Assembly (NCBI GenBank): GCA_907163375.1
Contig: CAJQUW010005215.1
Span: 40,468 to 104,467 of the forward strand
Source: Prostheceraeus crozeri
Lineage: Eukaryota; Platyhelminthes; Polycladida; Euryleptidae
DNA: 64,000 nucleotides
Direction of reading: 5' to 3'
In this document: positions 17,196 through 56,074 of the stretch, one piece after another
Numbering within the stretch: position 1 is the first letter of the stretch
How the letters are laid out: the number at the start of each line of letters is the position of its first letter
Position numbers and translations under genes: made by a program
The notes under the pieces: model-generated
The model's input: only the letters and a program-made list of their open reading frames with translations
The model's database searches: none
What the model was told of the DNA's origin: nothing

Positions 17196-17227
17196 TTTTT
17201 AGGATTAAATTTGACTTTAGGGGGAAA

Positions 17228-18118: not shown

Positions 18119-18163
18119 TTTTTAAACAGTAAAAAAATAATTTTTTCTGATAAAAATAAAAAA

Positions 18164-19950: not shown

Positions 19951-19979
19951 AATTATTATTCCCACGTGTCATCATTTGA
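19951..19979 (-). other. Short block resembling the 3' end of the E2-type polymerase gene
   Basis: Read on the minus strand, ATGATGACACGTGGGA followed by AATAATT matches the final codons and stop region of the E2 polymerase (47488-47510) at about 26 of 28 positions. Its position and orientation are exactly where the end of that gene would lie if E1 had once had the E2 arrangement. Confidence 0.6.
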
Positions 19980-20036
19980 TATTAAAATGTCTATATCTAA
20001 AATTAAAACACAAATTTTTTCTTTAAAAAACAAATA

Positions 20037-24465: not shown

Positions 24466-24546
24466 ATTTCTAAAGATTAAGAAAAGAATAAATTATTCGA
24501 TCACTCCGAGAAAATATTTTCTATCGACTTTCAGTCGGGGCGAAGC
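24466..24546. other. Convergent gene gap with GC-rich hairpin (E1)
   Basis: Only 81 bp separate the convergent polymerase and ATPase stop codons. It contains GACTTTCAGTC, an imperfect palindrome, next to GGGGCGAAGC, a decayed form of the hairpins expanded in E2 at 43500-43545. It may serve as a bidirectional 3'-end signal. Homology with E2 ends near 24480, marking one edge of the exchanged polymerase block. Confidence 0.6.
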
Positions 24547-25322: not shown

Positions 25323-25361
25323 TTTTAATAAAATAATTTTTATTTTTTAAGAAGAAGAAAA

Positions 25362-26154: not shown

Positions 26155-26209
26155 TTTTTAGATAAAAATTTTAAATAAACATTTTTTATTAAATATTTTT
26201 TTATAAAAA

Positions 26210-27020: not shown

Positions 27021-27157
27021 TTTTAAAATATAATATTTGAATTTTGTGGTAACATTGGAATACAACAAAAACATTTTACTGAACAAATTATTTTTTATTG
27101 CTTTGTCGTCTGACATCCTTTCGTCTAAAGTTTTGTTTAATAAAGTTTTTAGTTCTT

Positions 27158-27793: not shown

Positions 27794-28289
27794 TTTTTAA
27801 TAAATATTCTGATATTTTTTGGTCTATGTGAAAAGACTACGTAAATTTTTGGACTACGTGAAATTTTGAGACAACTTAAATTTTCGACCACGTGCTATTT
27901 TGAGACAACTTAAATTTTCGACTACGTGAAACTTTTAAAACCTCTTTTCAGTATAAGAAAAAATCCCAACGATCTTAAAACTGTTTTTTTTTTATTTTAT
28001 CCTTAAAATTATTTTTATTTATGAAACTCTTTTTCAGTGTATGAAATATTTCCTATACTCATTCTGGAGGTATCCTATTTTCTTTTTAGTTGTCCTGAAT
28101 CGGTCATATATTCATTTTTTTGTATTTTTGGGGTACCTTATTTTTTTTTGCTTGTCCTGGACCGGTCATATATTCATTTTTTTCTCTTTAGTTGTCCTGA
28201 ATCGGTCATATATTCATTTTTTTGCATTTTTGGGTACCTTATTTTTTTCTATTTTTTGTTTGTCCTAGAACGGTCTTATATACATTACT
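27543..28289 (-). repeat. E1 right terminal inverted repeat
   Basis: The inverted counterpart of 11526-12135, ending CATTACT before the target duplication. It is longer than the left copy because of an internal tandem duplication: the motif TGTCCTGAATCGGTCATA or a variant occurs at 28091, 28153, 28193 and 28261. An ACGTGAAATTTTGAGACAAC-type subterminal repeat lies at 27850-27930. Confidence 0.9.
28091..28278 (-). repeat. Terminal iterons TGTCCTRRAWCGGTCWTA (E1, right end)
   Basis: Four 18-bp copies begin at 28091, 28153, 28193 and 28261. The left end has two copies in inverse orientation. The same core (TGTCCTGGAACGGTCATG) is iterated in the E2 termini, although the sequence between copies differs. 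Repeated, orientation-specific motifs at both ends suggest binding sites for integrase or replication proteins. Confidence 0.8.
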
Positions 28290-39688: not shown

Positions 39689-40325
39689 AGTAGTATATAG
39701 TGTGACATCCGGCGCGACGCTTCGCTTCGCTTGCGCCGGATGTCACACTTTTGCGGGTTTTTTTTCAAAAAATCAAAATTTCAAAAATTTAGGTAGACTT
39801 CAAATTTCACGTGGCCGAAGGCCGAAGGGGCGAAAATTTAGGTAGTGACAAATTTTCAAAAAAATCAAAATTTCAAAAATTTAGCCGGTCTCAAAATATT
39901 ACGTAATCTCAAAATTTGAGAATTACAATTTTCACCCTTAAAATCATGACCGTTCCAGGTAACAGAAAAAATCATAAAAGTTAAGAATCCCAAATTTGAG
40001 AATTACAATTTTTACCTTGAAAATCATGACCGTTCCAGGACACCGAAAATCATAAAAGTTGAGAATTTCAAATTCATGAATTTTATCTTTCTTTCATTTT
40101 TTCAAAATATATCATGTGACTGAAAATATTTCTTTAAAAATGGAAGAAAAAAAAGTGGATGAAACCGCAAGAATATATCCTTCGTTATCATATGAACGTA
40201 GTTCTACTTTAATGGACATTGAAAAAATGAATAAAGAAAAACACAAAGATAGAGTACGTTATATGAAAGATAAGGAATCTCAATTATTATTAAGATTAGA
40301 GCATTATAAAAAGTTAAGAAAGAGA
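39689..40325 (+). repeat. E2 left terminal inverted repeat
   Basis: Inverted copy at 55428-56074. It contains the terminal palindrome (39699-39749), a GGCCGAAGGCC hairpin near 39812-39822, a block at 39889-39917 nearly identical to E1 11789-11817, two copies of the ATGACCGTTCCAGG motif (near 39946 and 40026), and the start of the membrane-protein gene. Confidence 0.9.
39699..39749. repeat. Terminal palindrome/hairpin of E2, left
   Basis: Seventeen-base arms (39699-39715 and 39733-39749) built on TGTGACATCCGGCGC and its perfect reverse complement enclose a 17-nt loop of GCTTC repeats. It lies 10 bp from the transposon terminus. The right end has the same arms with a longer loop. A role in replication initiation or end protection is possible. 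Confidence 0.9.
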
Positions 40326-40791
40326 TGGTGTAAAGTTAAGAATGTAACACAAGGAATTGGCATATTCTTAACAATAAGTTTAGGTGCTTTAACAATTGTT
40401 ATATCTTCAGGTGTTTTAGTAATTCCAGTAGTTGCTACAGCTTTAACAGGTACGGGTGTTTTTGCAACTTCATTTGTTACAATGTTAGATAAATCCTTAA
40501 TAACTAAGAAACGAAAATCATTAAAAACTAAGCATTTACATATTAAAGAAGTCTATGATAAACTACATTACTACTTTCAAAGAGTATGCGATGATAATGT
40601 TATTACGTTAGATGAGATTGAAAAATTGGATCAAATAGCTAATAAAGCTAATAAAACGCCATTTTATTAAAGTCCGAAAAAGTTGATGATAAGAATAAAC
40701 AGGATGGCAAAATTTCTAGTGATGGTAAAATTTCTAATGAAGAAAATGACAAAATTTTTTTAGAAGAGCTAAAAACTTTAAGCGAAAATTA
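40140..40791 (+). pseudogene. Two-helix membrane protein (E2), frame broken near the 3' end
   Basis: Homolog of the 211-residue E1 protein. The start at 40140 follows TTTAAAAATG and matches the E1 start. The Thr-rich N-terminus is shorter. The double hydrophobic segment (GIFLTISLGALTIVI, VLVIPVVATALTGTG) is intact. The frame ends early at 40670 (NKTPFY), after which E1-like codons continue in another frame to about 40791. The unbroken part, 176 residues, keeps both membrane helices. Confidence 0.7.
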
Positions 40792-40940
40792 AAACAAAAC
40801 TTTATTAAACAAAACTTAAAACGAGAAAACTTTAAACGAAAAGATGTCAGACAACAAAGCAATAAAAAAATAATTTGTTCAGTAAAATGTTTTTGCCGTA
40901 TTCCAATGTTACCACAAAATTCAAATATTATATTTTAAAA

Positions 40941-41765
40941 ATGGATAAAATTAGAGCTGATAATTTGAAAAGAATTAAACAATTAGAAGAGTTAATAAAA
41001 CAAAGAAATATTATGAAAGAAAATCATCTTCAACATAGAATGATAAAAGCTGGTATTCAATCTGATATGTTTGAAAAAATGCAGCAAACTGAGCAAGTAA
41101 AAACTGATTTTGAAAAAACTATGAAACCATTTAAAACTCTTGAAAAAGAAAGTACAAATAATGATAAACAAATTGATATAACAGATCCAGAGCACAAAAC
41201 TATATTAGATGACTATGGATTACTAGAATCAAACATTAATAAGAAATTACCAAAATCTATGCAATTTGAACATTCTATTTCATTTATAGATGGAAAAACA
41301 ATACCTAGATTTTATCTCGGACAAAAAGAAATATTTCCACAACCTTTTCGAGGTTTAATTTTTTCACCAGATAAATCTCCTTTTAATTTAGATAGAAATT
41401 TTGTTGATCTTTTAAGAGGAGCAGATTTAGATAATTATGCTGTAGAAGATCTCATAAAATATAAAGCTATGTTAGATAGAGTTGGTGCAGTAAAATCTCT
41501 TAGACGTTATAAACAATTAGAAAATTTATTATCAACGGGAGTTAAAGTAGGAAAAGGTTTATCTGAAAAACAGAAAACAGAAACAACTGTATTCTTACCA
41601 GATGATCCACAAGAATTACTAAATAGATTAAATATTTTAATATATGCAATAAAAGGAGGACATAATTCTAATTTCAATGAAATTCATGCTATATTGAAAA
41701 GACTGTTAGAAAAGAAGATTCTAAATGAAGAGGATTATAAAAGTATAACGAACCGATGGTTCTAG
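40941..41765 (+). CDS. Conserved Polinton protein of unknown function (E2)
   Basis: 274 residues from the ATG at 40941 (context TTTTAAAAATG; 22 further codons are open upstream). The N-terminal half is helical and Lys/Gln-rich, the middle block contains PQPFRGLIFSPDKSPF, and the C-terminal part includes LPDDPQELLNRLNIL. The last four residues (NRWF) come from an inserted double hairpin at 41748-41778 that replaces the E1 C-terminus and supplies the stop. No family is recognised. Its position between membrane and penton genes is conserved, suggesting a structural role. Confidence 0.65.
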   Translation: MDKIRADNLKRIKQLEELIKQRNIMKENHLQHRMIKAGIQSDMFEKMQQTEQVKTDFEKTMKPFKTLEKESTNNDKQIDITDPEHKTILDDYGLLESNINKKLPKSMQFEHSISFIDGKTIPRFYLGQKEIFPQPFRGLIFSPDKSPFNLDRNFVDLLRGADLDNYAVEDLIKYKAMLDRVGAVKSLRRYKQLENLLSTGVKVGKGLSEKQKTETTVFLPDDPQELLNRLNILIYAIKGGHNSNFNEIHAILKRLLEKKILNEEDYKSITNRWF

Positions 41766-41778
41766 GGCTTCGCCCGTA
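41748..41778. repeat. GC-rich double hairpin insertion (31 bp)
   Basis: Stem 1 is GAACC-GAT-GGTTC (41750-41762), followed by TA, then stem 2 GGGC-TTC-GCCC (41765-41775). Comparison with E1 (minus strand near 26230) shows AAGTATA joined directly to GCTGAAAT there, so these 31 bp are a clean insertion in E2. Confidence 0.9.
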
Positions 41779-41858
41779 GCTGAAATATGTTGTTGTTTTT
41801 AATTTTTTATAAAAAAAATATTTCATAAAAAAATAGTTATTCAAAATTTTAACTAAAA

Positions 41859-42647
41859 ATGTGTTCAGTAGATTAAGACAAAATTAATTATCATTTAGAA
41901 AATTTGACAGAGATTTTGGGTTCATCAAAATTTAGTACGACGTTAAAAATTATAACAACTACTTCATCACACACTTGTAATTTAGAACCCATTCTACATT
42001 TGGAACAAAATAAAAATTATCAAATTGCATTGACTAGTTTCTCTACATTTAACACTATTCAAAATGTTATAAAAGATGTGAATGATCAATTTAGATATTC
42101 TACTGATAAAGGCAAAACATGGAAAATATTAACTTTTCTTCCTGGTTCTTACGAAGTTGAATCAATATCAAATGAAATTAAGAGACATTTAGGTATACCA
42201 TTTAAAGATAAGAAACAATTACATTTTGCAGTTGAACCGGCAGTCAATAAATTTTCTCTTACTTTAGACGAAAATCATCAAGTTGATTTTAATCATGATA
42301 GATCATTGTCAAAGCTACTAGGATTCAATAAACAAACCTATAGTCAAGGTTATCATTTAGGTGAGAAGATTCCAAAAATAACTGAAATAAATTCAATTGT
42401 TGTACATTATGACATTATTGAAGGAGGATATATAAATGGTAAATTGTCAAATTTAATATCCAGTTTTCCAGCTTTTACTGTACCCATTGGTTATAGATTA
42501 AATGTAATTCCGCAAACATTAATATATTTCCCTATTACAAGAAAAACTATTAACAACATTAACATGAGAATCACTGATGAAAAAGGAAAAGAAATAAATT
42601 TTGGAGGTGAAGAGATTATGATAGATCTTTTGGTTCGGGAGGTATAA
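41859..42647 (+). pseudogene. Penton-like minor capsid protein (E2), early stop
   Basis: 262 codons in one frame from the ATG at 41859, with a TAA at codon 6. From 41904 it is open to the end. It has the same domain as E1 penton, with a central YSTDKGKTWK stretch, GYRLNVIPQTLIYF near the middle and the closing GEEIMIDLLVREV, typical of the single-jelly-roll vertex protein of Polintons. The last codons and stop come from a GC-rich insertion that recreates the REV ending. A start downstream of the TAA, without the first 15 codons, would still leave most of the domain. Confidence 0.85.
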
Positions 42648-42733
42648 ACTCCTACGCGAAGCTAGAGAAGTTTAATTTTCTTCTTCTTCTTTAAAAATAA
42701 AAATAAAATAAAAATAAATTTTTTTATTAAAAA

Positions 42734-43501
42734 ATGAGTGAAGTACCCCCATTAAATAAAAAGAAACTGAAATTTAATCATCATCCAAATTTATCTAATA
42801 AAGTTTTGTCAGTTATTTGCGGAAGATCAGGATGTGGAAAAACATATCTATTATTTAAAATTTTAACGACTCCAAATTTTTTGGATTATAACAATCTTAT
42901 AATTTATACAACAACGGCAGAACAACCCGTCTATCAATTTTTAAAATATGGATTTGAAAATAATCTTTAAAAAACAGCAATTGCTTCATTATTCAAAGAA
43001 TATGAAAAATCTGAAGATGAAGAAGAAATAAGTTCGTGGTGTGAAGAAGCAGCAAAAAATAATCAGTTAGTTGAAACCAATAAAAATAAGCATATAAAGA
43101 TACAATTAATAGATGATAGTGGTAATATGCAAGATCCTAGTAAACTAGATAAAACAATGAAACATTGTGTAATTTTTGATGATTTTGTTAATGATAGAAA
43201 TCAGTCAGTTCAGAGAAATTATTTCACAAGAGGTAGACATAATAACTGTAGTGTATTTTATTTAACACAAAGTATGTATTCATTAGACGGAAGTGTTATT
43301 AGAAAGAATGCAAATATATTTATACTATTTGAAATAAATGCAAGAAACTTAAGTGATTTGTTAAGAGATTTATGTGTAAGAAATAAAGATGAATTTAAAC
43401 AATCGTGTAACAATGCTTGGTCAAAAGATTATGGATTTATCACAATTAATATTGATAACAAAATACATGATAGAGTTATCGAACAATTGTTCTCTGACTA
43501 G
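42734..43501 (+). pseudogene. Genome-packaging ATPase, FtsK/HerA type (E2), single stop
   Basis: 256 codons in one frame, interrupted only by a TAA at 42968-42970 in a T/A run. The P-loop GRSGCGKTYLLF is intact (about residues 33-44), and Walker B lies in HCVIFDDFVND (about 138-148), followed by a YLTQSMYSLD sensor-like segment. Length and motifs fit Polinton packaging ATPases. The E1 copy is broken at the same A-run, by a different change. Start context TTATTAAAAAATG. Confidence 0.9.
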
Positions 43502-43588
43502 GCTTCGCCTCGAGGGGCTTCGCCCCGACTGAAAGTCTATAGAAAATATTTTCGCGGAGTGATCGAACGGAGTGACCGAATAATTTTT
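43500..43588. repeat. GC-rich hairpin cluster after the E2 ATPase gene
   Basis: GGCTTCGCC is followed by GGGGCTTCGCCCC, then GACTGAAAGTC, and then CGGAGTGATCG repeated as CGGAGTGACCG. E1 (24480-24546, minus strand) has one copy of each where E2 has two, so short hairpin-sized units were duplicated in E2. Confidence 0.8.
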
Positions 43589-43622
43589 TCTTATAAATTT
43601 TTGTTAATAAAAATAAAAAAAT

Positions 43623-43928
43623 ATGTTGAATGCTTACAAGATAGAGCATGTACCAGTTTCAAAAGATTATCGTCATCCTACAAATCCTGTAAATTCGAAG
43701 AAAGAAGTTAGATTTTATTATCATCATAAATACGTAGCGCTCGTTACAGATTATAAAACAAAACATGGTATTAAACCGTGTGTTAAAACAAAAGACTTTC
43801 CACTTTGTTTAAGAAGTTTCCGAGTATTTTTGGCGTATAATAATTTATGGTGGTTGGTTAAGAAAGAACATTTAACAACACATGAATTAGAAACATTACA
43901 TCAATTACATATTCCTGTATATATGTAA
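43623..43928 (+). CDS. Unrecognised 101-residue protein, E2 only
   Basis: An intact frame with an A-rich start context (AAAAAAATATG). It is basic and aromatic (HPTNPVNSKKEVRFYYHHK, NNLWWLVKKEHL) with no recognised domain. It has no counterpart in E1 because it lies inside the exchanged polymerase block, directly upstream of the type II polymerase. It may be a replication accessory protein or a terminal-protein-like partner, but this is speculation. Confidence 0.55.
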   Translation: MLNAYKIEHVPVSKDYRHPTNPVNSKKEVRFYYHHKYVALVTDYKTKHGIKPCVKTKDFPLCLRSFRVFLAYNNLWWLVKKEHLTTHELETLHQLHIPVYM

Positions 43929-43946
43929 AAACGGAACCGAGGTTCT
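43929..43946. repeat. Single GC-rich mini-hairpin
   Basis: GGAACC-GA-GGTTCT is a stem identical in class to stem 1 of the double hairpins. It lies directly after the stop codon of the 101-residue gene. Confidence 0.7.
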
Positions 43947-43977
43947 ATGTAAAAATTCATTTTTTCTTTTAAAAAAT

Positions 43978-46900
43978 ATGAATCGTGAAATGTCTCTCGG
44001 AAAAACGTCTAGGATTGATGAATTAATCAAGAAACAAACTACTGAGTCTGATACGCAAATTAAACATAGTAAACGTATTAAAAAACAGAAACGTACTAGG
44101 CGTAGTATTAGACGTAATACTAAAAAACAGAAAAGTGGAACAAAAGAAATATTAGAAACTCCTATTACTGATATCTTTTTTGATGATAGAATTAAGGATG
44201 AACTTGGTGATGATTTATGTAATTTATTTAATCCAAATGAAATTAAATATGAAAATTTATCTTTCATTAATGTAGTAAATGATATGCGGAAACTTTTAGC
44301 AAATGGTAAAATTATTAATTTACTTGGAAAAGTTGTTAAAGATCAGGAAAATGCAATTCAAAATTTTTACGTAACCTTCTATAATAAAAAATCATTTGAA
44401 ACATGGTTTTCGAATCTGGATGAGAAATCCGATGCTAACGAATGGATTTTTACAGGTAACATTAAATATGAAGATTTTGGAATGAAGTTAGTACAAAGAT
44501 CACATAGGGGGGCAGGGATTAATATGAAATATAGAATCAAAGAATATTTCGGTGAATATTGTTATATTCCTTCTGAAGATTTTTGTTTTATTAAATGTTA
44601 TAATGTTTTACGAGGTTTTAATGAAGAACAAGGAGAAATGATGAAAGAAATGTTTAATAATTTTTTATATAAAGAGAAAGCCACATCTAGAACAGGACTA
44701 ATGTCAAACTGCAAATTTTCTCAATTCAATAAATATTTTGGAGAATGTGTTCAATATTATAGTCCTGCCAATCGTCATTTAAATCCTAGAGGAATTGAAA
44801 CGTTTCATAATTATGTTTATTACAATTATTTTCACGCAGGTTCAACAATTGGTCACTATTGTTTAATTAATAAATCTCATAAATTAAAAGCTATTAGAGA
44901 AATTGAAAATAATTTCAAACCCATATATAAAACAGTTACTGATGAAAATCTAACAACGCGTCCATATAAAATCATAACAAAGAAAAAAATTGACTATGGT
45001 TCAACATATATTTGGGATCTCGAAACTTTTCCCGATCCTAACTGTTCAACAGCTCATCCTATTCCTTACGCTGTAGGAGCTATTAATTTTAATAAATTTA
45101 TATGTTGTTTACCGAAACAAAGATTGAAAGAATTAGAAACACGTTTGTTAAGTGATATGATTAAAATTAAACGATCAAAAGATGAAGATGAAATTAAAAA
45201 ACTTAAAAAACAGGTTAATGAGTATAATAATTTAACTGAATTAGAATTTAATGAACTTCAAAATTGTGTGAAAATATTTACGAGAACTGAGGATGATGAA
45301 TGTTCATTCGGGGGAAACCCAGAGGACGTATGTCCGATCCATCAATTTTTTAAAACTCTTGGAAAATTTAATTATTCTAGAATAACTTTAATAGCTCACA
45401 ATTCATCAGGTTTTGATTCCTATTTTCCGATAAAAGCTAATTTTAAACTATCTAAACCGCCTCTTAAAACTTCAAGAGGAATATTGACTGCTTCATTACA
45501 AAATCCTTATACAACTGAATGTGTTAGTAGATACATTCAAAAATCTTTTAGATTTAAAAACAATATGAAAAAAGATTCACTTTCAGGTAAATTAGCACTT
45601 CAAACTATTATAATGAAATGTAGTTATCAACATGTAAAAACAAGTCTTTCGAAATGGTGTGAGAATTTTAAAATTCCTACGAATGTGTGTAAATTAAATT
45701 ATGAAATTGGAGACATAACGAATGAAAATTATAAAGAAAAAGAAATTGAATGGAGACCATATTTAGTTAACGATATTCTTTCTTTAGCTTTTTGTATCTA
45801 CAAATATAATAATGTTATGCGAGATTTAGTTGGTGAAGATATAACTACTAATTTAACATCCTCTGCTTTAACATTTAACGGTTGGATGAAAAGCGTACAA
45901 AATGACAATATAAATATTCATTCTCATATAGATTTATGGGCTAGAAATTATATTAGAAAATCTGTTAAAGGTGGAAGAGTTTCAGCAAATATAAGAAAAT
46001 ACATATCGCCATTTTGTAACATCTTGTTACCAATATTAAAACAGTATTTACCTGGTCGCTGGGCTGGGGGGACTTTGTCCCTTGGTCGCTACGCTGGTGG
46101 GGCTTTGTGCCCTGGAAGTAATTTAATAGATTTAATGAAACAGCATCGAGATTTAGGAGATAAAACTGAAATTTGTAAGAAAATTTCAAATCAACTACTT
46201 GAACAAAAAAATGAATTTCTAATGGCTTTTGATGCAACATCTTTATATCCATCAGCTATGTATGATGAAAATTCAGAATACCCTAAAGCTGAATCAGCTA
46301 GAAAATTTCGTCAAGAAGAAGAGCGGGAAATAGTATATAAATTTAATACACAAACATTTAGACCTAAAACTGGAATATTCTCTGTTGTGTTTCAATATCC
46401 GAATGATATGTTTTTCCAACCAGTTCCTATAAAAGATAAAGTTAAAAATCAAAATAATAATTCTCATGTAAAAGTAATCAGGTTTAGAAATGGTATATGT
46501 TATGATGTATTAACTTCTGTAGACATACAAGAAATTGTTAGATGTGGGGGAAAAATCTTACATATTACTGATGGTATAATTTATGAAAAAAATTATCAAG
46601 TTTCACCATTTCGAAATTATATTGAAAAACTTTTTTATTTGAGAAAAAGATATAAAACAGAAGGAAATACTGTAGGTGATGAGTTAATTAAATTATTGAT
46701 GAATTCGCTATATGGCAAAACTGTGCAAAAAGATATAACCACAAGATCATTTATGGAATGATAATACATTGAGAAAAAATTTCACTCAAGAAGTAAAAGA
46801 TTATGAAAAATTAAATGATGAACAATATTTAGCGAAAGTAGAAATGGAAGATGATGAATTTCTCAAAACTAATATTGTAAAAGATGGGAAGACGTCATTC

Positions 46901-47502
46901 ATGCCATCACACTTAGGTTCTTTCATTCTTTCTCACTCTAGAAGAATCATGAATAACTTTATTTTAGAAATTAATGGTTTCAAAGAAAAATACATTCATT
47001 ATACAGATACTGATTCAATATATATTTCCAATGAGGTCTTTAATAAATTAGACGCTGCTGGATATGTTGGAGGAGAATTGTGTCAAGGGAAAAATGATTA
47101 TGGAAATGGTGGAATTATTTTTGCAATGTTTATTGCACCTAAAGTAAAATACTGTATTACTGTAGATGAGCAAGGGAGACTTGGTGAAAAGAGAACATTC
47201 AAAGGATATTCAGAAGATAAAGTAAAAGTAGAAGATTTTCTAAAATTATATTCGGGGAAAACATTATCGACTACAGTTAATAAACCATGGAAAAGATCTT
47301 TAGAAACTGGAATTAGCATTCCTGATAAAGATAATAATACTGAAAAAAAAAATTTTCTGGTCAAATAAATATTCTTAAACGTCAAGCACCTGATGAAAAT
47401 GAAATTATGTTACCTTATAACGGAGAAGATATTCAAGCTGAAATATTTCAAACAATCATCTGTGAGAGTAATTTAAGTGATGATGATGACACGTGGGATT
47501 AA
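43978..47502 (+). pseudogene. Family B DNA polymerase, type II (E2), two frameshifts
   Basis: About 1,170 codons. A basic N-terminal tail (KRIKKQKRTRRSIRRNTKKQ, about 30-50) precedes a long family-specific domain. The exonuclease block WDLETF is near residue 346 and AHNSSGFDSYF near 475. Polymerase motif A is FDATSLYPSAM (about 753-763), motif B is KLLMNSLYGKT (about 904-914), and motif C is HYTDTDSIYI after a frameshift near 46750. A second shift at an A10 run (about 47343) leads into the tail ending DDDDTWD. It shows no close similarity to the E1 polymerase outside the catalytic motifs and lacks its zinc finger. It probably replicates the element by protein priming. Confidence 0.9.
46045..46118. 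repeat. GC-rich hairpin block inserted in the E2 polymerase reading frame
   Basis: Two tandem units, each with GGTCGCT..GCTGG followed by GGGGACTTTGTCCC or GGGGCTTTGTGCCC, lie in otherwise AT-rich coding DNA and keep the frame open. They add Gly/Trp/Arg residues (PGRWAGGTLSLGRYAGG), unlike the flanking Lys/Asn-rich protein. Confidence 0.8.
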
Positions 47503-47507
47503 TAATT

Positions 47508-47660
47508 TTTTTATAACATCTAAAAGATTTATTACATCTAAAAAATTTATAACATCTAAAAAATTTATTGCATCTAAAAAATTTATTACATCTAAAAACT
47601 TATTACATCTAAAGACTTATTACATCTAAAAACTTATTACATCTAAAAACTTATTACATA
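47508..47660. repeat. Minisatellite TTATTACATCTAAAAA (E2)
   Basis: About nine copies of a 16-18-bp unit between the convergent polymerase and clamp-like genes. The reverse complement of the unit also occurs in E1 (19866-19950), so it predates the split of the two elements and expanded in E2. Confidence 0.9.
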
Positions 47661-47711
47661 TGAAAATATATTTATCGAATATTTTGGTATTTTCTATTAA
47701 GTTTTATCATA

Positions 47712-49040
47712 TTAAGTTTCATCATATAATGTTTTATCAAAAGATAATTTAAATTTATTTTCACTAACTATTGATTCTTCATCATCATCATCAATTGATT
47801 CTTCATCATCATCATAAATTGATTCTTCAACATCATAAATTACATTTTTTGGTATAGGATGCCATTCCCTGATAGGATACCATTCTCTTATTGGAATATC
47901 TAACTCTAAATTACATCTTTTATCTGATAATAATATAATAGAGAAAAATATTAGTCTTTGATCTCTTTTGGAAAATTTAATAACACCACCATAATCTGAA
48001 TCACTTTTAGTTTTTATTAAAGATGATAAAATTTTAAATTGATTAGATGTAAATCCTAATTTAAATTTTGTAGACCCGACACATAGTTGTCTAACAGTAT
48101 CTTCAACTATACCATCATTATTATTTTCAATTGTAAGAAAATGAAATTTAGATAAATTTTTATAATTACTAATATTTTTATAATCTTTTTTACCATTTAC
48201 ACCATTTTCAGATGTTTCAGAATCATCATCTATATTATCATCATCTATATTATTATCATCATTATTATCATAAGATTCTTTAAGATCGGGCAAAGCCCTA
48301 GAACCTTCAGTTCGTTTATTATGATTATGATTATGGACATTGTTAATAGTATGAGGTGTTGTCCACATATAAATTTTTTCTTGTTGAGCTAAACCATTTA
48401 TGTAAGATTTTAATAAATTAATATTTAAATTGGAATACAATCCTATATATGTATCATCATCATATCTTTGCGGCATTTCTAATGTTTCTTGTTTATAAAT
48501 TGTATCTCTATAATATACTTGACATAATAATTCTTCGTTATGCTTTTTACTCTCTATGTGAATGTTATATTGATTTTGATCGTCAACAAATAATCTAATT
48601 TTTTTCTTTCGAAAAAGATTTTAATTTTTTAACTAATTCTTTAATATTGATATAATTAATAATTTTTTTTCTATCCAATCAGTATTACTAATTGGCAACA
48701 CTGCTCTAATAAAACCGAAAACATTATTATGACCTATTATAACCATATTTTCTTTATTTAATTCAACATAAGCTACATTATTATATTTACTTACTATATC
48801 CATAAATTCAATAAATGGATCACCCGGAAATAAACAATAGTTAGTTTCTACAGAAGGTAAACCTTTTGTTTGTTCTCTAAATATTTCGGCTTGTAATTCA
48901 AATAAAATATTTACATCTATACATGGATTATTATTATTATTATTATCAAAACATTTATTTTCAAATGCCGTTGATCTCGTCGAATAAAATGAACAGGATG
49001 ATGTGGACGAATATAATTTTTTTAAATTTGCTTTATCCAT
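47712..49040 (-). pseudogene. Unrecognised conserved protein, possible sliding-clamp fold (E2), frameshifted
   Basis: Counterpart of E1 18164-19886. The start at 49040 follows AAAAAATG. The first part includes FMDIVSKYNNVAYVELNKE. A frameshift in an A8 run near 48660 separates it from the second frame (48476-47712), which has the segment FKLGFTSNQFKILSSLIKT and an Asp/Glu-rich C-terminus. A 30-bp in-frame double hairpin (48288-48322) adds RTEGSRALPD after a His/Asn linker. The last ~100 codons seen in E1 are absent. A processivity factor is a guess from fold-like pattern and from its position beside the polymerase. Confidence 0.6.
48290..48320. repeat. In-frame double hairpin in the clamp-like gene
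   Basis: On the minus strand it reads CGAACTGAAGGTTC, TA, GGGCTTTGCCC. It agrees with the 41748-41778 copy at about nine of ten positions. E1 has only Asn/His codons at this place, so it is an insertion, and its length preserves the frame. Confidence 0.85.
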
Positions 49041-49115
49041 TTTTTTATTTTTATTAGATAAAATTTTAATTTTTTATTTTTAATAGAAAAAATTTTATTT
49101 TTTTATTGTTAAAAA

Positions 49116-50001
49116 ATGATGTTACCAAATTTTGGTGGAGGTGCATATATCCCGAATAATCGTGAATTAGAAATAGAAATAGAAAATTATATTATGAAAA
49201 CTGGAGACGTTTTATCTGGTCCATTGCATCTTTCTATTCTTCCGCAACAAAATACAGAGTTAACAAATAAACAATATGTTGATACACAAATCAATGACTT
49301 AAAAAATATATATAAACGATGTTTTGGTTCCACTGATGAATGAATTAAAGTTGCTTAAACTTAATGACAAATCATTAAACGAAAAATTATTAAAACTTGA
49401 TCAAAAGGATAGAGAGCTAGAAGCAGATATAGCAAAACTTTTTAAAAAGATTTCAGAACAATCGAAAATTTTAATATTACTTTCTATAAATTTAAAATCT
49501 GCAGTCATTAAGAATAAACATCAGATAAAAATGTTAAAAGAACAATTAGAAGATGAAATAGAAAAACTACCTGAAAGAATTAAAAAAAATTTAAAGCAGT
49601 TACAAACTACATTCCAAAAAAGTGTTGATGAATTAAGTTCTAAAATTACTCAACAAATGAAAAAGATGAATAGAATAATAAATGAAGTAAACTCGCTTAA
49701 TCAAAGAGTTGATAAAATGAAAACTCTTAAAATCAATTTAGAAAATGAATTAAAGAAAAATTTACAAGAAAACTCTAAAGAAAATAAAGAACAGTTAGAT
49801 GCTGTTAAAAGACAATTAGATGTTCTTAAAATTAAGTTAAATGCACTTAAAACGGCATTGAAGATTAATCAGCAGAAAATGCAAGTTAATAGAAAAGAAA
49901 TTAAAGTACATCACACGCTGCTTGACGCAATAGATAAAGTGCAACAGTCAATTAATAAAGTTATCTCGAAGTTGTTGTCCATTCACAAACGTAAATCTTA
50001 A
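49116..50001 (+). pseudogene. Coiled-coil fibre-like protein with tail-fibre-type motif (E2), one frameshift
   Basis: Homolog of E1 18118-17228. The N-terminal frame 49116-49343 carries MKTGDVLSGPLHLS and LTNKQYVDTQI; a shift at an A6 run near 49300 moves to the frame 49324-50001, a Lys/Glu/Leu coiled coil of about 220 residues ending in a basic tail. The phage-like motif followed by a long coiled coil suggests a trimeric fibre. The only defect is the single shift in the A-run. Confidence 0.68.
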
Positions 50002-50002
50002 T

Positions 50003-50070
50003 CGGACCAAAGGTCCTCGAGGCTTTAGCCGATCGGACCAAAGGTCCTCAGGTTACTAACCAATCGTAAC
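50003..50070. repeat. Tandem double hairpins after the E2 fibre-like gene
   Basis: Order: GGACC-AAA-GGTCC, then GGCTTTAGCC, then GGACC-AAA-GGTCC, then GGTT-ACT-AACC. A decayed version of the same string (GGCTTTAGTC ... AAAGGTCC ... CTACTAACC) lies in E1 at 15307-15348 after the capsid gene, so the same hairpins occupy different places in the two elements. Confidence 0.85.
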
Positions 50071-50106
50071 TATTTTTTCCCCAAAAGTCAAATTTAATCC
50101 TAAAAA

Positions 50107-50598
50107 ATGCCTATAATTTATAAACAAAATCTTAAACATTTTGCTTCAAATCAAAAAATTGCTCATGAACCATCTATGAAATCTGTTTACCATTATGACA
50201 GTGTAGAAACAATCGGAACACAAAAGTTCCTAAACACCGCAGGTGCCGTTCAAAAAGAAGGGGCTGGTATATTTTCTGGTATTGGAAGTATCGTTAACTT
50301 CATTAAAAATAATAAAGATTTGATTACATCTGCTGCAAAAGGAGCAGCTGCTATAGATAGTACAGCTAGTGCAATATCAAATGCTGTTAAGTCTCAAAAC
50401 GAATTAAAGCAACTAGAAGCTATCCGTAAACTTAGGAATGATTCCGAAGAACTAAAAAAATTAAAAAAACTTTCAGAGGAAACAAAAAACAAAATTGCTA
50501 ACATAGCTGTGGAGGGTGATAGTAAACATAATGAAAAAACAATTGAAGAAATAAGAGGTAATGGCGTGAGCAGCGCAGCTGGTCTAGCAAAATTCTAA
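50107..50598 (+). CDS. Small Ala/Lys-rich conserved protein (E2)
   Basis: 163 residues, intact. The N-terminus begins MPIIYKQNLKHF, then a Gly/Ala/Ile hydrophobic segment (about 55-95, with SAAKGAAAIDSTASAI), then a Lys/Glu-rich helical C-terminus ending GLAKF. It is conserved with E1 17195-16677, where it runs in frame into the capsid gene. It is probably a minor virion protein, but no family is recognised. A start context of CCTAAAAAATG is shared with E1. Confidence 0.7.
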   Translation: MPIIYKQNLKHFASNQKIAHEPSMKSVYHYDSVETIGTQKFLNTAGAVQKEGAGIFSGIGSIVNFIKNNKDLITSAAKGAAAIDSTASAISNAVKSQNELKQLEAIRKLRNDSEELKKLKKLSEETKNKIANIAVEGDSKHNEKTIEEIRGNGVSSAAGLAKF

Positions 50599-50760
50599 AA
50601 TTATATTTTAGTAAAAAATTTTTTAGTAAAATTTTTTTAGTAAAATTTTTTGTAAAATTTTTAGCAAATTTTTTTAGTAAAATTATTTTAGTAAAATTAT
50701 TTTAGTAAAATTTTTTAGTAAACATTTTTTAGTAAACATTTTTTAGTAAACATTTTTTCT
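50599..50760. repeat. Minisatellite TTTTAGTAAAA between small protein and capsid genes (E2)
   Basis: About eleven imperfect copies of a 13-16-bp unit (TTTTTTAGTAAAA). It is absent from E1, where the reading frame is continuous through this position. It probably grew from the end of the upstream gene and introduced its present stop and spacing. Confidence 0.88.
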
Positions 50761-50801
50761 GTCTGTGAGAAAAACAAAAAGTCAAATTATTTTTTATAAA
50801 A

Positions 50802-52137
50802 ATGTCTTCGCTTATCGAAAATAAATTTAGAGTAGACGATCCTCCGTTCGTCAGTTATAATCAAAAAAAGAATGACTATATAAGAATTGCTATGAATCCC
50901 GGATCTTCCAGTAGAGTGAATACTGGAGGTGATTTAATTTTTGAAGTTGATAATCAACAAAGTTATTTATATCTACCTGATTCATTTTTACACTGTGAAT
51001 ATTCTTTATATAGTGATGCCAATTTTGCAACACCATTACCAGATACCGATAATATTGCACCAGAGAATAATTTCTTTCCAAAATTATTTACACAAATGCG
51101 TTTAGATGTTGCAACTCAAAATATAGAAACAATAAGTGATTCTCCAGGTGTAATTGATACAATGCTTAGATTTGTAACAATTGGTGAAAATAATAAAAAG
51201 TATGAAATCGAAGGTTGGTTTCCTGATACTAATGATGGTATAATTGTTGATGATTTAACTCACGCTGGAACAGATGCAGCAGGAATTGCGAATGATGTAG
51301 AAAATATTGCAAAACATTTAAATAAAACAAATAATGATGCATATAAAGAAAGACGTGAATTTAACAAGAAAAGTAAGCAAACAGTAAATTGGTCATTGTC
51401 TCCATTATTCGGATATTTAGATTATGATAAAATATCATATCAATTAAAGATTAAATTAATAATTCATCGCACAGCAAATAATGAATTAATCTTTTTTGGT
51501 AAGACTGGAAAAAAAGCATATTTAAAAATTGATAGACTTGAATGGTGGATTAAGCATATTACTCCTAGTTTAGAGATTGAAACAGCTATTGCAAAAAGAT
51601 TAAATACTAACAAACCAATTCCAGTAAATCTTCTAAAGAGAACCGCTAGTTTAGTAACTTTTTTTGTAAAAAAGATTTAACTGGCATTTTACTAGAACAG
51701 CGAATACACCAAGATATTTATTACTAACTTTTCAAAGAAATAATTCTCCAAGTTTTGATAAGAACAATAATCTCTTCCATATTAATACAATTCGAAGTTT
51801 ACAAGTTTCATTAAATCAAACCCGATATCCAATTGATCCATCAAGATTCGATGATACCAATAATCAATTTATGGAAGGATATGATTCTTATCGAAATCTT
51901 TGTATAGAATTTGGAGTTGAACCACAATTAACTCCTGGAGATTGGAGACATTTATATCCTGTTTTCTGTTTCGATTTAAGTGCACAATCTGAAGATATTA
52001 TCAAGACTGGTTGTGATGTAACAATTAATATTGAAAAGAAAGATTCCACAACTTCATTGATGGCTTATGGTTTATTGCTAGAAGATGTGAAATATTCTAT
52101 TGAAATTCTTAGTGGAAAGATGGCTAGGATCGGTTAA
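50802..52137 (+). pseudogene. Polinton major capsid protein (E2), one frameshift
   Basis: About 445 codons. The first 293 are open (50802-51680). The frame shifts within a T7/A6 run near 51660-51676, and the remainder continues to 52137 (open from 51683, with YPVFCFDLSAQ about 60 residues before the end). The opening segment (DDPPFVSYNQKKNDYIR), FFPKLFTQM and KAYLKIDRLEWWIK identify the F54H12.2-like capsid family, which has the double-jelly-roll fold used by Polinton virions. The single-base shift in a homopolymer is the only obvious defect, and unlike E1 there are no TGA stops. Confidence 0.88.
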
Positions 52138-52164
52138 GGCCCAAGACTTCGTCGATTAATTAAT

Positions 52165-52285
52165 TTTTTTCATAACTAGAGTAGATTAAAATTTTTTGAT
52201 AACTTAAAATTTTTTGGTAACTTGAAATTTTTTCATAACTAGAATAGATTAAAATTTTTCGTAACTTAAAATTTTTTTATTAAAA
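52165..52285. repeat. Minisatellite of AACTTAAAATTTTTT type (E2)
   Basis: Four to five imperfect copies of a unit of about 22 bp, alternating AAATTTTTT with AACTT or AACTAGA. It fills the gap between capsid gene and small basic peptide. E1 has a shorter related string at 15236-15300. Confidence 0.75.
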
Positions 52286-52393
52286 ATGTCGCGAGCGAAA
52301 AGTAATAATAAAACTGTTGAATTAAAATTACGTAATATTGTTGACAAAAATACCCCTAAAACTATTACGATTAACAAAAAAAGTATTACATAA
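52286..52393 (+). CDS. Small basic peptide, 35 residues (E2)
   Basis: Begins MSRAKSNNKTVELK in the conserved TTATTAAAAATG context and ends KKSIT. It is also present in E1, where it is frameshifted. Rich in Lys, Asn and Thr. Its place between the capsid and Gly-rich genes suggests a core or scaffold peptide. It is too small for confident recognition; its conservation and start context are the evidence that it is a gene. Confidence 0.6.
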   Translation: MSRAKSNNKTVELKLRNIVDKNTPKTITINKKSIT

Positions 52394-52401
52394 GTAAACC
52401 A

Positions 52402-52764
52402 ATGATAGAGAATATTCAATTACAAGAAGAAAAGAATGGTGGAATTCTCCCATTAATTCCACTAAAATTAGGTGGCATAGCAGCAGCAGGAAGTGTCGCA
52501 GGTGGGACAGCTGGTATTGTTCAAGCAGTAAATAAAAATAAATCAGAGAAGGCAGCATTGGAAGAACAAAAACGACATAATAGAGAGTTAGAGAAAGTTG
52601 CTAGGGGTGAAGGAGTGGTAGATAATTTTATTAGTAAATTAAAATTAGTTGATGAAGGAAAACGAGTTCTTAAAAATATTCTCCGCAATGTTGATGATTT
52701 AATTGAAATTAAAGAAACTAAAGATGGTTCTGGAATATATCTAAGTCCTAGTATGATTCGGTAA
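52402..52764 (+). CDS. Small Gly-rich hydrophobic conserved protein (E2)
   Basis: 120 residues, intact, and very similar to E1 15103-14741. The hydrophobic segment (LKLGGIAAAGSVAGGTAG, about 20-38) is followed by a Lys/Glu-rich helix and a C-terminal KETKDGSGIYLSPSMIR. It starts 8 nt after the basic peptide stop. It may interact with membranes as a minor capsid protein, from composition only. Confidence 0.7.
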   Translation: MIENIQLQEEKNGGILPLIPLKLGGIAAAGSVAGGTAGIVQAVNKNKSEKAALEEQKRHNRELEKVARGEGVVDNFISKLKLVDEGKRVLKNILRNVDDLIEIKETKDGSGIYLSPSMIR

Positions 52765-52767
52765 TAA

Positions 52768-52797
52768 CCTCAGGACCTTTGGTCCATAAGGTAAACA
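52768..52797. repeat. GC-rich hairpin after the Gly-rich gene (E2)
   Basis: ACCTCAGGACC-TTT-GGTCC then ATAAGGT. The core stem is GGACC/GGTCC with a TTT loop and an outer ACCT/AGGT pairing. E1 lacks it at the same gene end. Confidence 0.8.
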
Positions 52798-52832
52798 TTT
52801 ATTTTATCTTTTAAATTTTTTTATCTTTTAAA

Positions 52833-54160
52833 ATGAATTCTACAAATTCCGAAAATTTAATTAAATTAAAAATTTCTAATTTAGATTTATTAAATTATCT
52901 ATTAAACAAAAATAAAAACTCAAATTGTAAAATTTATGAAGGTAACGACGACAAACAAAGTTTGGCTACTACCTACGGTGGTGACATACAAAAAACATTA
53001 GAAAACTTTCCTGGCTTTATTTGGAGTAAATATTTGAAAGAAAAACATCTTCCTGGTCATTCATATACTGGTCCAGGAACTCGATTAGATATAAGACTAG
53101 ATGAGAATAATAATCCGAAACCAGGTGAAGAACCAATAAATAGAGTAGATGCCGCCGCTTATAGACATGATTTAGCTTATCGAAATCATGATCTAAGTTC
53201 TCGTCATGCAGCTGATAAGAAGATGATTCAAGAATTAGATAGTATTCAAAATCCTACATTTAGAGAAAAAATTGAAAGAATGTTTGTTAACAAAGCTTTA
53301 CAAGCTAAAATATTATTCGGCCAGGGTTTAAATGAAACGACAGCAAAGCTGTCTGAGAGCAACGCTCGAACCTACGCGTCTGAAATTCATAAAGAATACA
53401 GAAAGCCTAAATATCTATTAAAAGTAAAAGTATTTAATAAAGATGATATTTGGAGTGCTGATCTTATTCATATGCCGAATGAAAGGTACTACAAATACGC
53501 ATTGACCGTTATAGATTTATATACACGATAGGCTTGGGTAAAGCCTTTAAAAAATAAAAGTGGTCTATCAGCCAAATATGCGTTTGAAGAAATCTTTAAA
53601 GAAAGTAAGAGAAAGCCAAGGAAATTGTTTGTTGATAAAGGGTCGGAATTTTATAACCGAAACGTTCAGCCACTATTTGAAACTGTTTATTCAACTGAAA
53701 ACGCTGGAAAAGCTGTAGTGATAGAAAGATTCAATCGGACGTTAAAAAATTAATTATTCAAGAAATTTACTGAGCAAAGAAATCAGAAATGGTTGAAGAT
53801 ATTGCCAGGAATTGTAGAGCAGTACAATAATAAAGTTCATTCAGGTATTGAAGAAACTCCAAAGAATGATTCTGACGACCCTGATTTGATAAGAAAAAAA
53901 TACTCGAGAATAATTATTTGAATGAGAGTAATCCGAATTTGCAGAAACTTAAGCCGAAATTTAAAATTGGAGATAGAGTTAGAATATTTAAATATAAGAA
54001 TGAATTTGAAAAAGGCTTTGTTGGCTATTGGACTAAAGAAATATTTGAAGTTTGCAAAATAAATCAAACTTATCCGATTACTTACGAAATCAAAGATTTA
54101 GATGATGAAAATATCAGAGGCCGATTTTATCAAAATGAATTACAACGAACTGATTTTTAA
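52833..54160 (+). pseudogene. PLA2-domain / retroviral-type integrase fusion (E2), broken
   Basis: About 440 codons. The PLA2-like module (about 75-130) has YTGPGTRLD and AAYRHDLAY and is followed without a gap by the integrase core. The first Asp is in WSADLI, the second in VDKGSEF (the expected Asp, unlike E1), and Glu in VIERFN. A C-terminal SH3-like part starts FKIGDRVRIF. Defects are a TAG at 53529 in place of a Tyr codon, a stop near 53750, and a one-base loss in an A-run near 53895. An in-frame hairpin insertion at 53337-53370 lengthens the linker between the two modules. The start follows CTTTTAAAATG. Confidence 0.88.
53337..53370. repeat. In-frame double hairpin in the integrase linker
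   Basis: GACAGC-AAA-GCTGTC followed by T and GAGAGC-AAC-GCTC. E1 lacks about 27 bp here (nine codons), so the insertion is a multiple of three. It lies between the PLA2-like and integrase domains. Confidence 0.82.
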
Positions 54161-54180
54161 TTATCATTATTTTCATTAGG

Positions 54181-54212
54181 CGTAGCCATAGAACCTACGG
54201 TTCGTTCAATTC
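54181..54212. repeat. Double hairpin at the end of the protease gene
   Basis: On the minus strand it reads CGAACCGTAGGTTC, TAT, GGCTACGCC, the same pattern as 41748-41778. It provides the last codons and stop of the E2 protease; E1 ends with different residues. Confidence 0.85.
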
Positions 54213-54680
54213 TAACATAATATCTAGAAATGGTACTCCTTCCTGTAATTTAAATAAAACATAAAGACATAATTGACCGCAATATGTAGTTCCTGGATTT
54301 TGAATTTGAAATGTATTATAAATTCCATTGCCAAGTAATTTTTTGACTTCGTTTGTAGGTGGAAGTCCGTATGAGTCGAACCAATGGTTCTCAGCCTCCG
54401 GGCGGTCAAAATAATAATTAGAACAGTTTATATTTCTTTGTCCTGCTGACCAATGTACACCTTTTTCATCTGACATATGAAGATTTGTTATGAAATTTAC
54501 AGTTTGAACTTTGTTCCGGGAACTGAAGGTTCCTGTTGGCTTATTTTTTAGGAATTGTAATTCATCTCTCATTAGAACATGAAAATTCTTTATTCCTAAT
54601 TCATTTGCGATTTTCTTTAGGTCGAAATTTGTCGTGGTTTGCGTTCCATATAATTTAAAAAACTCCTTTATGTTGCTCAT
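54195..54680 (-). CDS. Adenain-like cysteine protease (E2) with hairpin-derived insertions
   Basis: 161 residues, open throughout. The His is in GVHWSA, the acidic residue in NYYFD, and Cys in TYCGQLCLYVL. Compared with E1 (141 residues) it has two in-frame additions: TGTFSSRNKVQ (54517-54545) and RPEAENHWFD (54384-54413) directly after the YYFD motif, close to the catalytic acid. Both derive from GC-rich palindromes. Whether the enzyme tolerates an insertion so near the active site is uncertain. It converges with the integrase gene. Start context TTATAAAATG. Confidence 0.88.
   Translation of the reverse strand: MSNIKEFFKLYGTQTTTNFDLKKIANELGIKNFHVLMRDELQFLKNKPTGTFSSRNKVQTVNFITNLHMSDEKGVHWSAGQRNINCSNYYFDRPEAENHWFDSYGLPPTNEVKKLLGNGIYNTFQIQNPGTTYCGQLCLYVLFKLQEGVPFLDIMLELNEP
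54384..54415. repeat. In-frame double hairpin next to the protease catalytic residue
   Basis: On the plus strand it reads CGAACC-AAT-GGTTC, TCA, GCC-TCC-GGGC. It is 30 bp, including a GAC that is also present on the other side, which suggests a 3-bp target duplication. E1 lacks it. Confidence 0.85.
54517..54545. repeat. In-frame hairpin in the protease N-terminal half
   Basis: GGAAC-TGAA-GGTTCC flanked by CCGG and GTTGG. It adds about ten codons relative to E1 and keeps the frame. Confidence 0.75.
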
Positions 54681-54689
54681 TTTATAAAA

Positions 54690-55427
54690 AAAATTTCTTA
54701 AGGTACCCCTAGAAGTCAGAAGGGAGGGGGTATTGATTTAAAACTGTTCTCTAATGATGACTTTCCTTACTACTTATTCGATTTTGAAATGATTATATTA
54801 TTATTATTCTAATCTATATTGTTTTATATATGTCCATTTTCTTCATGAACTTCATTTGTTAATATGTTTTATCGTTAAAATGATTGTTTAAAATTGCCAT
54901 AACAACTAACCCGCATATCGGCGTTTATGCGTTCTGAGTTCACAAGAAGAATTTTATTGTCATTTGCTTTTATTGTCAATGCACTCTTATGTGCTTAATC
55001 TATTCATGTCTTCACAATGGGAAGTACTGTACTACCCGTATGTGTTTGGCAAACGCTAAATGAATTTTGCAAATCGATTTCTAAAACTGAATTTGAAAAC
55101 AGACTTTGCAAATGGATTTTGAAAATAGATTTTGAAAACAGATTCTGAAAATAATTTACGTAGGGGTAAATTGAAATGTCAAAACTTTTACGCACGCGTA
55201 AGTTGAAATGTCAAAAGTTTACCGATGGGTAAATTGAAATGACAAGAGATAGCACGATAATTTTAGGGGAAAGCTGCTAGATGTTTCTCTCTCTTCAATT
55301 ATCAGCCAGTGTACGGGTTCATTGAATAATTTTGAGTTTATGAGTTACAATGATCTTCTAGTTCACACAATTAGTACTTTAAATAATGTTGAGCATACAA
55401 TAACGAAGAATGTCTAAGTAATAATTG
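54690..55427. other. E2 terminal spacer with two small tandem arrays
   Basis: No gene. Between 55080 and 55150 a unit like GATTTTGAAAACAGA repeats three to four times, and between 55155 and 55245 a unit GTAAATTGAAATGTCAAAA repeats three times with CpG-rich variants. It corresponds in position, not in sequence, to E1 12136-12982. Confidence 0.7.
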
Positions 55428-55548
55428 CGTCTTCTTAATTTATCATAATGCTCTAATCTTAATAATAATTGAGAACCATTTCATCTGTTTTTAATTGAGA
55501 TAACGAAGGATATATTCTTGCGAGTTCATCCACTTTTGTTTCTTCCAT
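55428..55548 (-). pseudogene. Truncated 5' copy of the E2 membrane-protein gene inside the TIR
   Basis: The ATG at 55548 is retained in the TTTAAAAATG context and codes for an N-terminus like that at 40140. An internal deletion of about 70 bp and the end of the inverted repeat remove the rest, including the membrane helices. Confidence 0.75.
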
Positions 55549-55645
55549 TTTTAAAGAAATATTATTAGTCACACGATATATTTTAAAAACCTGAAAGATG
55601 GATAAAATTCATGAATTTGGAATTCTCAACTTTTATGATTTTCGG

Positions 55646-55819
55646 TGTCCTGGAACGGTCATGATTTAAGCGAGAAAATTGTAATTCTCAAATTTTGAGT
55701 TTCTTAACTTTTATGATTTTCGGTGTCCTGGAACGGTCATGATTTAAGCGAGAAAATTGTAATTCTCAAATTTTGAGTTTCTTAACTTTTATGATTTTCG
55801 GTGTCCTGGAACGGTCATG
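55646..55819 (-). repeat. Terminal iterons TGTCCTGGAACGGTCATG at exact 78-bp spacing (E2)
   Basis: Identical 18-bp motifs begin at 55646, 55724 and 55802, each in a 78-bp repeat unit that also contains AATTGTAATTCTCAAATTTT. The left end has two copies. The motif is the same class as the E1 iterons. Confidence 0.9.
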
Positions 55820-55996
55820 ATTTTATGGGTGAAAATTGTAATTCTCAAATTTTGAGATTTTGAAAAATTTGAAAATTGGGTATTTTTAAAAACGCTTAAA
55901 TTTTCGCCCTTCGGCCTTCGGCCACGTGAAATTTGAAGTCTACCTAAATTTTTGAAATTTTTGAAATTTTGATTTTTTGAAAACCCCCGCAAAAGT

Positions 55997-56062
55997 GTGA
56001 CATCCGGCGCAAGCGAAGCGAAGCGAAGCAAAGCGAAGCGAAGCGTCGCGCCGGATGTCACA
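55997..56062. repeat. Terminal palindrome/hairpin of E2, right
   Basis: Arms TGTGACATCCGGCGC at 55997-56011 and its perfect reverse complement at 56048-56062. The 36-nt loop consists of AAGCG repeats and is 19 nt longer than the loop at the left end. Confidence 0.92.
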
Positions 56063-56074
56063 ATATATACTACT

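Follow-up and report, generated by a model that had tools for sequence, protein, structure and literature searches.

GC clusters of yeast mitochondria carry a short flanking duplication, the palindromic elements of Rickettsia (about 100-150 bp) are mobile and lie in frame within protein genes, and mobile-looking palindromic mini-elements are also found in some bacteria. Miniature inverted-repeat transposable elements (MITEs) are short, non-coding, present in high copy number and bordered by a target-site duplication. One source reports that yeast mitochondrial GC clusters are regarded as moving at the DNA level, that sponge mitochondria contain repetitive hairpin-forming elements, including insertions within genes that cause no frameshift, and that the double-hairpin elements of Allomyces lack flanking duplications (PMC2800124). 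The mechanism by which the palindromic mini-elements of organelles and some bacteria arise and spread is not settled. Polintons (Mavericks) are virus-like transposons recognized by terminal inverted repeats with AG...CT ends, a 6-bp target duplication, a PolB of the protein-primed type, an rve integrase and a double jelly-roll capsid. Here we describe GC-rich double hairpins inserted in Polinton DNA of the polyclad flatworm Prostheceraeus crozeri, examined from a window of 64,000 nt on one contig of its 2.05-Gb genome, which contains Polinton E2 and a comparison copy, E1.

Double hairpins in E2 and across the genome

The insertion of GC-rich double hairpins in Polinton DNA is confirmed, and it is larger in extent than first noted. 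Counting hairpins with a 3-nt loop and a stem of at least 4 with at least 3 G/C, we found 18 in E2 against a mean of 2.0 in 50 shuffles (maximum 6), while E1 has 2 against 1.3 expected and three host stretches have 6 against 5.1, 6 against 4.8 and 4 against 2.4. Double hairpins occupy 10 places in E2 against 0.03 expected (60 shuffles, no linker rule), or 9 against 0.00 under a linker rule derived from the same data; the same scan finds none intact in E1 and 0, 0 and 1 in the host stretches (about 31 kb). Each unit consists of two adjacent mini-hairpins, with stems mostly of 3-7 bp, loops usually of 3 nt and a joiner of a few nucleotides, giving a core mostly of about 26-36 bp. All seven places that had been listed in the preliminary description overlap a unit, with an offset of up to about 12 bp: these are units A, F, G1, G2 and K (Table 1), together with J, L and M, whose hairpins span 53338-53368, 54378-54404 and 54506-54533. 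Further places lie at units B, C, E, I, P and Q.

The inserts were initially presented as a property of E2, and they are present there, but many Polinton copies of the same genome carry them. The motif GGGCTTCGCCC occurs 13,298 times in the genome (6,782 + 6,516) against 36 times (17 + 19) for a reversed-letter control. Twenty stretches of 10 kb were sampled around listed occurrences, and 19 of the 20 proved to be Polinton copies, as did all of eight further 3-kb loci with the motif, six of them from contigs already sampled. By contig, the motif lies inside a Polinton copy in 17 of the 18 examined (the 100 places listed fall on 23 contigs), which rules out that the family is confined to E2. 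The exception, L032, was rejected as a host copy: there the 11-mer sits within a longer, unrelated inverted repeat. Within 240.8 kb of element DNA there are 130 double-hairpin places, a density biased upward because the stretches were chosen for carrying the motif, against 4 in 83.4 kb outside, and these 4 are unrelated in sequence by eye. The Polintons that carry the units examined are on large contigs, presumed nuclear. Elsewhere, the unit pattern gave no match in a genome-contig collection and matched five stretches in a viral-contig collection. Relatives of the MCP, PolB (queried both with a single sequence and with an alignment) and protease were not confirmed in the viral-contig collection, nor were relatives of the P gene in the genome-contig collection, and an MCP search of a phage collection gave no match.

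Insertion sites, flanking repeats and reading frame

Comparison of 35 sequences in 1,487 alignments distinguished 498 insertions 15 bp or more in length. From these a GC-rich set of 24-42 bp was picked by presence or absence only, without regard to structure, and repeats of one insertion were merged. Double hairpins form in 23 of the 34 merged GC-rich insertions against 0.81 in shuffled sequence (maximum 3), and 14 of the 34 are exactly 30 bp long; low-GC insertions of the same size form double hairpins in 5 of 34 (shuffled, 0.01). Under looser merging, which counts some sites more than once, the figure is 42 of 71 entries against 2.22. Among the merged double-hairpin insertions 11 of 25 are exactly 30 bp, and direct repeats of 3 bp flank 12 and of 2 bp flank 7, where the null expectation is 3.1% and 10.4%. 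Looser merging gives 3-bp repeats in 20 of 48 and 2-bp repeats in 9 of 48 once entries with repeats of at least 13 bp are dropped. The alignment of empty and occupied sites across copies places 2-3 bp direct repeats around most double-hairpin insertions. The flanking triplets are diverse (AAC, ATC, GTC, GTT, TTA, GAT, TAC and GTA), and three units of 26-31 bp reappear unchanged in 3, 3 and 6 unrelated contexts with no shared flank.

Genes contain 24 of the 51 entries, representing about 12 distinct sites, and all 24 are multiples of three, as had been proposed from a few genes of E2, that keep the frame and introduce no stop. The remaining 27 entries comprise 15 whose length is divisible by three and 12 whose length is not; some of the 27 lie within coding sequence beyond the gene set used. 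Most simply, insertion takes no account of the frame, and selection preserves it.

Database relatives bear on the direction of change. In a protease alignment of 20 of the 39 matches with E2 and E1, the site L insert is present in E2, P0019 and P0020 and the site M insert in E2, P0019 and P0021; the remaining rows, including E1 and all distant ones, have neither. P0030 (about 50% identity) carries a different insert near M that is missing from the similar P0032. In the P gene, aligned as E2 plus all 16 matches (17 rows, several partial), site P is filled in four rows (E2, P0059, P0061 and P0063), site Q in five (E2, P0059, P0060, P0068 and P0073, with P0071 ambiguous) and site R, missing from E2, in three. 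Inserts at L, M, P and R thus occur only in subsets of close relatives, and those at L, M and P are gains, because distant relatives lack them. The possibility that the inserts are ancestral and were deleted in E1 is ruled out by these outgroups for L, M and P, but B and H predate the split of E1 and E2. Compared with the sampled copies, P0004 and P0021 have best matches of about 97% and P0061 of 94%; the other 28 tested reach only 49-87%, and these database proteins therefore represent other lineages or unsampled copies.

Individual sites show the same family at closer range (Table 1). Site A is filled in 15 of 18 copies (E1, L014 and L027 are empty), and its hairpin 1 is of two kinds, found in some copies in tandem. 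Site C is a 21-bp hairpin minisatellite with 1-5 copies, site J has grown in other copies by 27-bp in-frame tandem repeats, and unit E is double in E2 and single in the 97%-identical database PolB P0004. Unit P is flanked by GTC/GTC in L035, L038, L040, L041 and L042 and by ATC/GTT in E2; the sole empty copy here, E1, lacks GTC. At site L, E2 and L039 read GAGTC[unit]GTC and L021 reads GAATC[unit]ATC, while five other copies are empty with AGTC or AATC, so the flanking triplet follows the local allele and both alleles occur at empty sites. Sites M and J show AAC duplications, and site H a GAT duplication, relative to empty copies; the empty copies at H are L019, L021, L038, L044 and L046. Insertion of a structured family, as first suggested, in frame inside genes, is borne out by the empty and filled sites seen among further copies of this genome, target duplications of 2-3 bp and derived insertions in database relatives. 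The clean presence or absence relative to E1 that had been described holds at four sites (A, C, L and P) and almost holds at two more (G and I). It does not hold at B, H and K, where E1 retains one shortened hairpin, a degraded pair and another GC-rich sequence, respectively, or at F, J and M, where the flanks have diverged. Nor does a picture of single insertions hold at A, C, G, I and J, where tandem arrays or minisatellites occur.

Table 1. Polintons of the window and the hairpin units and sites of E2 (positions in the window).
Feature	Position	Strand	Description
Polinton E2	39689..56074	+	ends AGTAGTATATA...TATATACTACT; 6-bp target-site duplication AACACC (39683-39688 / 56075-56080)
Polinton E1 (comparison copy)	11526..28289	-	6-bp target-site duplication AATACC (11520-11525 / 28290-28295)
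Unit A	41749..41776	+	C-GAACC GAT GGTTC-TA-GGGC TTC GCCC-G; end of gene 40941-41765, adds TNRWF*
Unit C	42635..42664	+	GGGAG-loop-CTCCC hairpin; E1 empty
Unit B	43500..43527	+	AGGC TTC GCCT-CGA-GGGGC TTC GCCCC at ATPase stop codon; GACT repeats either side
13-bp tandem	43555..43583	+	CGGAGTGAYCGAA; copy number differs across element copies
Unit D	43933..43948	+	single GAAC hairpin past a stop codon; polymerase region differs in E1, which has no counterpart
Unit E	46046..46112	+	two tandem copies of a GC-rich unit within PolB (GRWAGGTLSL GRYAGGALCP)
Unit F	48287..48313	-	GAAC TGAAG GTTC-TA-GGGC TTT GCCC; in frame inside gene 47712-48620
Units G1, G2	50004..50062	+	GGACC AAA GGTCC + GGCTTTAGCC / GGTTACTAACC; ATC before, between and after; directly past stop codon
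Unit P	50213..50248	+	36-bp in-frame insertion (GTQKFLNTAGAV) in gene 50107-50598
Unit Q	50564..50584	+	in-frame insertion VSSAAG in gene 50107-50598; longer nested form in other copies
Site H	52128..52160	-	3' of MCP gene; E2 unit degraded, E1 fuller (15305-15352)
Unit I	52759..52785	-	GGACC AAA GGTCC-TGA-GGTTATTACC at stop codon; longer arrays in L038, L044, L045
Unit J	53336..53371	+	AAC/AAC duplication; linker between PLA2-like and integrase parts
Unit K	54178..54203	-	3' end of protease gene
Unit L	54375..54407	+	GTC/GTC duplication; 10 codons inside protease gene, antisense to gene
Unit M	54500..54540	-	GGAAC CTTCA GTTCC + GAAC AAA GTTC; AAC duplication; 11 codons inside protease gene

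Both carrier elements end in AG...CT terminal inverted repeats within 6-bp target duplications. Pfam assigns to E2 a DNA_pol_B_2 domain (PF03175, 2.4e-28) and a PLA2-like domain; its double jelly-roll-like capsid match is weak (7.1e-4, under the curated cut-off), as is the rve match of E1 (7.1e-4, likewise under the cut-off). The PLA2-like domain (PF08398) and the weak rve core share one reading frame of E1 at 13479-14576 (compare 52815-53528). E2 is a damaged copy in which stops interrupt the polymerase and integrase frames. The two elements are about 90% identical over 9,751 ungapped columns in six aligned blocks, within which insertions of at least 9 bp number 28 in E2 and 12 in E1. A DNA comparison of their polymerase genes gave no match: these genes, at 20000-24460 in E1 and 43981-47500 in E2, differ greatly (about 27% identity in the parts that tblastn can align) and run in opposite directions within their elements. 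Most sampled copies have the E1 type, and L026, L027 and L029 have the E2 type. Other rearrangements include an inverted ATPase-penton-g41 block relative to g40 in L023 and L025, and a g41-like fragment, with an adjoining fam3 hairpin unit, that separates the P gene from the coiled-coil gene in L019 (5902-6063) and L021 (5426-5586). The ends of E2 (39700-39748 and about 56018-56063) carry a long palindrome, TGTGACATCCGGCGC...GCGCCGGATGTCACA, around GCTTC repeats, and its arms, GACATC/GATGTC, resemble hairpin 1 of fam3. On the minus strand at 29195-30238 is an open frame of 347 aa, a putative Tc1/mariner-type transposase.

Probable mobility of the units and competing explanations

We consider it likely that the units are a family of very short mobile palindromic cassettes, with cores mostly of about 26-36 bp, living in Polinton DNA. 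They have been gained at specific sites, leave 2-3 bp repeats at their junctions, occur as the same sequence at unrelated sites and as different units at one site, grow in tandem, are nearly absent from the sampled host DNA and, within genes, are found only as frame-neutral, stop-free insertions. Insertion would take place at the DNA level, at a nick or break staggered by 2-3 nt, and perhaps while Polinton DNA is replicating or extrachromosomal. Replication by protein-primed PolB displaces single strands, so that hairpins could form; strand displacement of this kind may expose the DNA in which the units fold. C-GNA-G loops make very stable DNA mini-hairpins, and their excess (10 of 44 distinct hairpins against 4 of 97 shuffled), suggestive and not used as proof, fits such folding. 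Units may later have spread between copies by recombination, and frame-breaking insertions in genes may have been removed by selection. The target duplication of the Polinton itself, at 6 bp, is unlike the 2-3 bp found at the units. On a bolder proposal, which we advance tentatively and would not expect to survive in full, the units would rank with the smallest known mobile elements, as hyperparasites of about 27-36 bp whose movement is restricted to the inside of a virus-like mobile element and takes place as folded single-stranded DNA during Polinton replication. Their commonest form, with its 2-3 bp duplication, would add whole codons (typically 30 bp), so allowing them to pass through gene-dense DNA and to add segments of about 9-13 residues to the structural, protease, integrase and polymerase proteins of the Polinton.

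Several results weigh against mobility. The sample is small, comprising 19 motif-selected copies with E1 and E2, and 13 second pieces were taken at the expected distance, of which 11 gave right-half sites, their membership of the same element being assumed. Six of the 25 merged insertions lack a repeat of 2-3 bp (one with 0 bp, two with 1 bp and three with at least 4 bp), and chance alone predicts some 2-bp repeats. Six single units folded as single-stranded DNA proved only modestly stable (z -1.2 to -2.4), so the case is built on recurrence and insertion and not on fold energy. Many sites are shared by descent, making independent events fewer than copies. No transposition was observed and no enzyme was found. 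In a capsid tree of 14 copies, end branches measure 0.004-0.022 (E1, 0.056) and no fork exceeds both support limits, for which reason the tree was not used to count gains and losses; with capsid differences of only about 1-2% per branch, the copies are already unlike at many hairpin sites. Fourteen features were scored, some of them sharing a site, and 34 of their 91 pairs show all four combinations of presence and absence. This also counts against mobility, because recombination alone suffices once units exist; recombination and recurrent gain or loss both fit the pattern.

Such a history is the substance of the strongest competing account, in which the units are no longer mobile but derive from few origins, have been reshuffled by homologous recombination or gene conversion, and grow and shrink by slippage, the triplets being relics or microhomology. 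Besides the four-combination pairs, five sites (A, C, G, I and J) with tandem arrays or minisatellites agree with it, and E1 at site B resembles a deletion between two GGCTTCGCC copies. We nevertheless think it unlikely, as identical units stand in 3-6 contexts whose flanks are not shared, the flanking triplets are many, and at site L, the one site concerned, they track alleles. Slippage or template switching might instead have made the hairpins on the spot in AT-rich DNA. Site C recreates the codons REV* ahead of its hairpin, suggesting a local duplication, but the recurrence of the same 26-31 bp sequences in unrelated contexts largely refutes this, and low-GC insertions fold in this way less often, though still above shuffles. 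We rejected it as a highly improbable explanation.

Two further readings assign the hairpins a role in expression. Hairpins have been reported at mimivirus mRNA ends, and eight E2 sites (A, B, C, D, G, H, I and K) lie at or just past stop codons, so the units might be RNA signals for 3'-end formation or termination, kept by selection and lost in E1. However, 24 of the 51 entries lie inside genes, and gene ends are empty in other copies (three of 18 at A, and the five listed above at H), and we rejected this reading as very improbable; Rfam likewise gave no match in the units, its one match, below the gathering score, lying elsewhere. Identical triplets on either side of a hairpin also recall mitochondrial bypass elements, with the triplets as take-off and landing codons for a ribosome that skips the unit. 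Bypass elements are not translated, and their length and stops are free, yet every in-gene entry here is a multiple of three and free of stops, which makes skipping the least credible of the explanations and led to its rejection.

Relation to known palindromic elements

The preliminary description knew of no comparable element in Polintons, and a limited search of the Polinton, Maverick and adintovirus literature, at the level of listings, likewise turned up no such hairpin element. The arrangement resembles a miniature mobile element inside another mobile element, and shows how virus-like transposons can rapidly gain in-frame protein segments. With very many copies, many pairs of empty and occupied sites, and duplications of 2-3 bp, such a nuclear family allows the mechanism to be tested from sequence data alone.

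Like MITEs, the units are short, numerous and flanked by a target-site duplication, but they are far shorter and not found in the sampled host DNA, no terminal inverted repeats were seen apart from the hairpins, unit ends such as CGAACC...GCCCG matching in inverted order at the outer C/G only, and no partner transposon is known, none having been sought. They share with the Rickettsia palindromic elements a palindromic, mobile-type sequence set in frame in protein genes, and differ in being animal and shorter, the Rickettsia elements being bacterial and longer. The analogy with fungal double-hairpin elements that had been drawn is apt in shape: the Allomyces and sponge elements, too, are neighbouring small hairpins of optional presence, some in genes without a frameshift (PMC2800124). 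It fails in the flanks, since 19 of the 25 merged Polinton insertions have 2-3 bp repeats and the Allomyces elements, according to the same source, are without duplications (PMC2800124), and in location, those elements being mitochondrial and the units examined here lying in Polintons on contigs taken to be nuclear. Yeast GC clusters are likewise GC-rich palindromes in AT-rich DNA that sometimes lie inside genes; the Polinton units differ from them in being nuclear and animal, in having two hairpins with cores of about 26-36 bp, and in their 2-3 bp duplications of many sequences. By analogy, the Polinton units appear to work most like yeast GC clusters, while by location they are in neither the yeast nor the fungal and sponge mitochondrial group.

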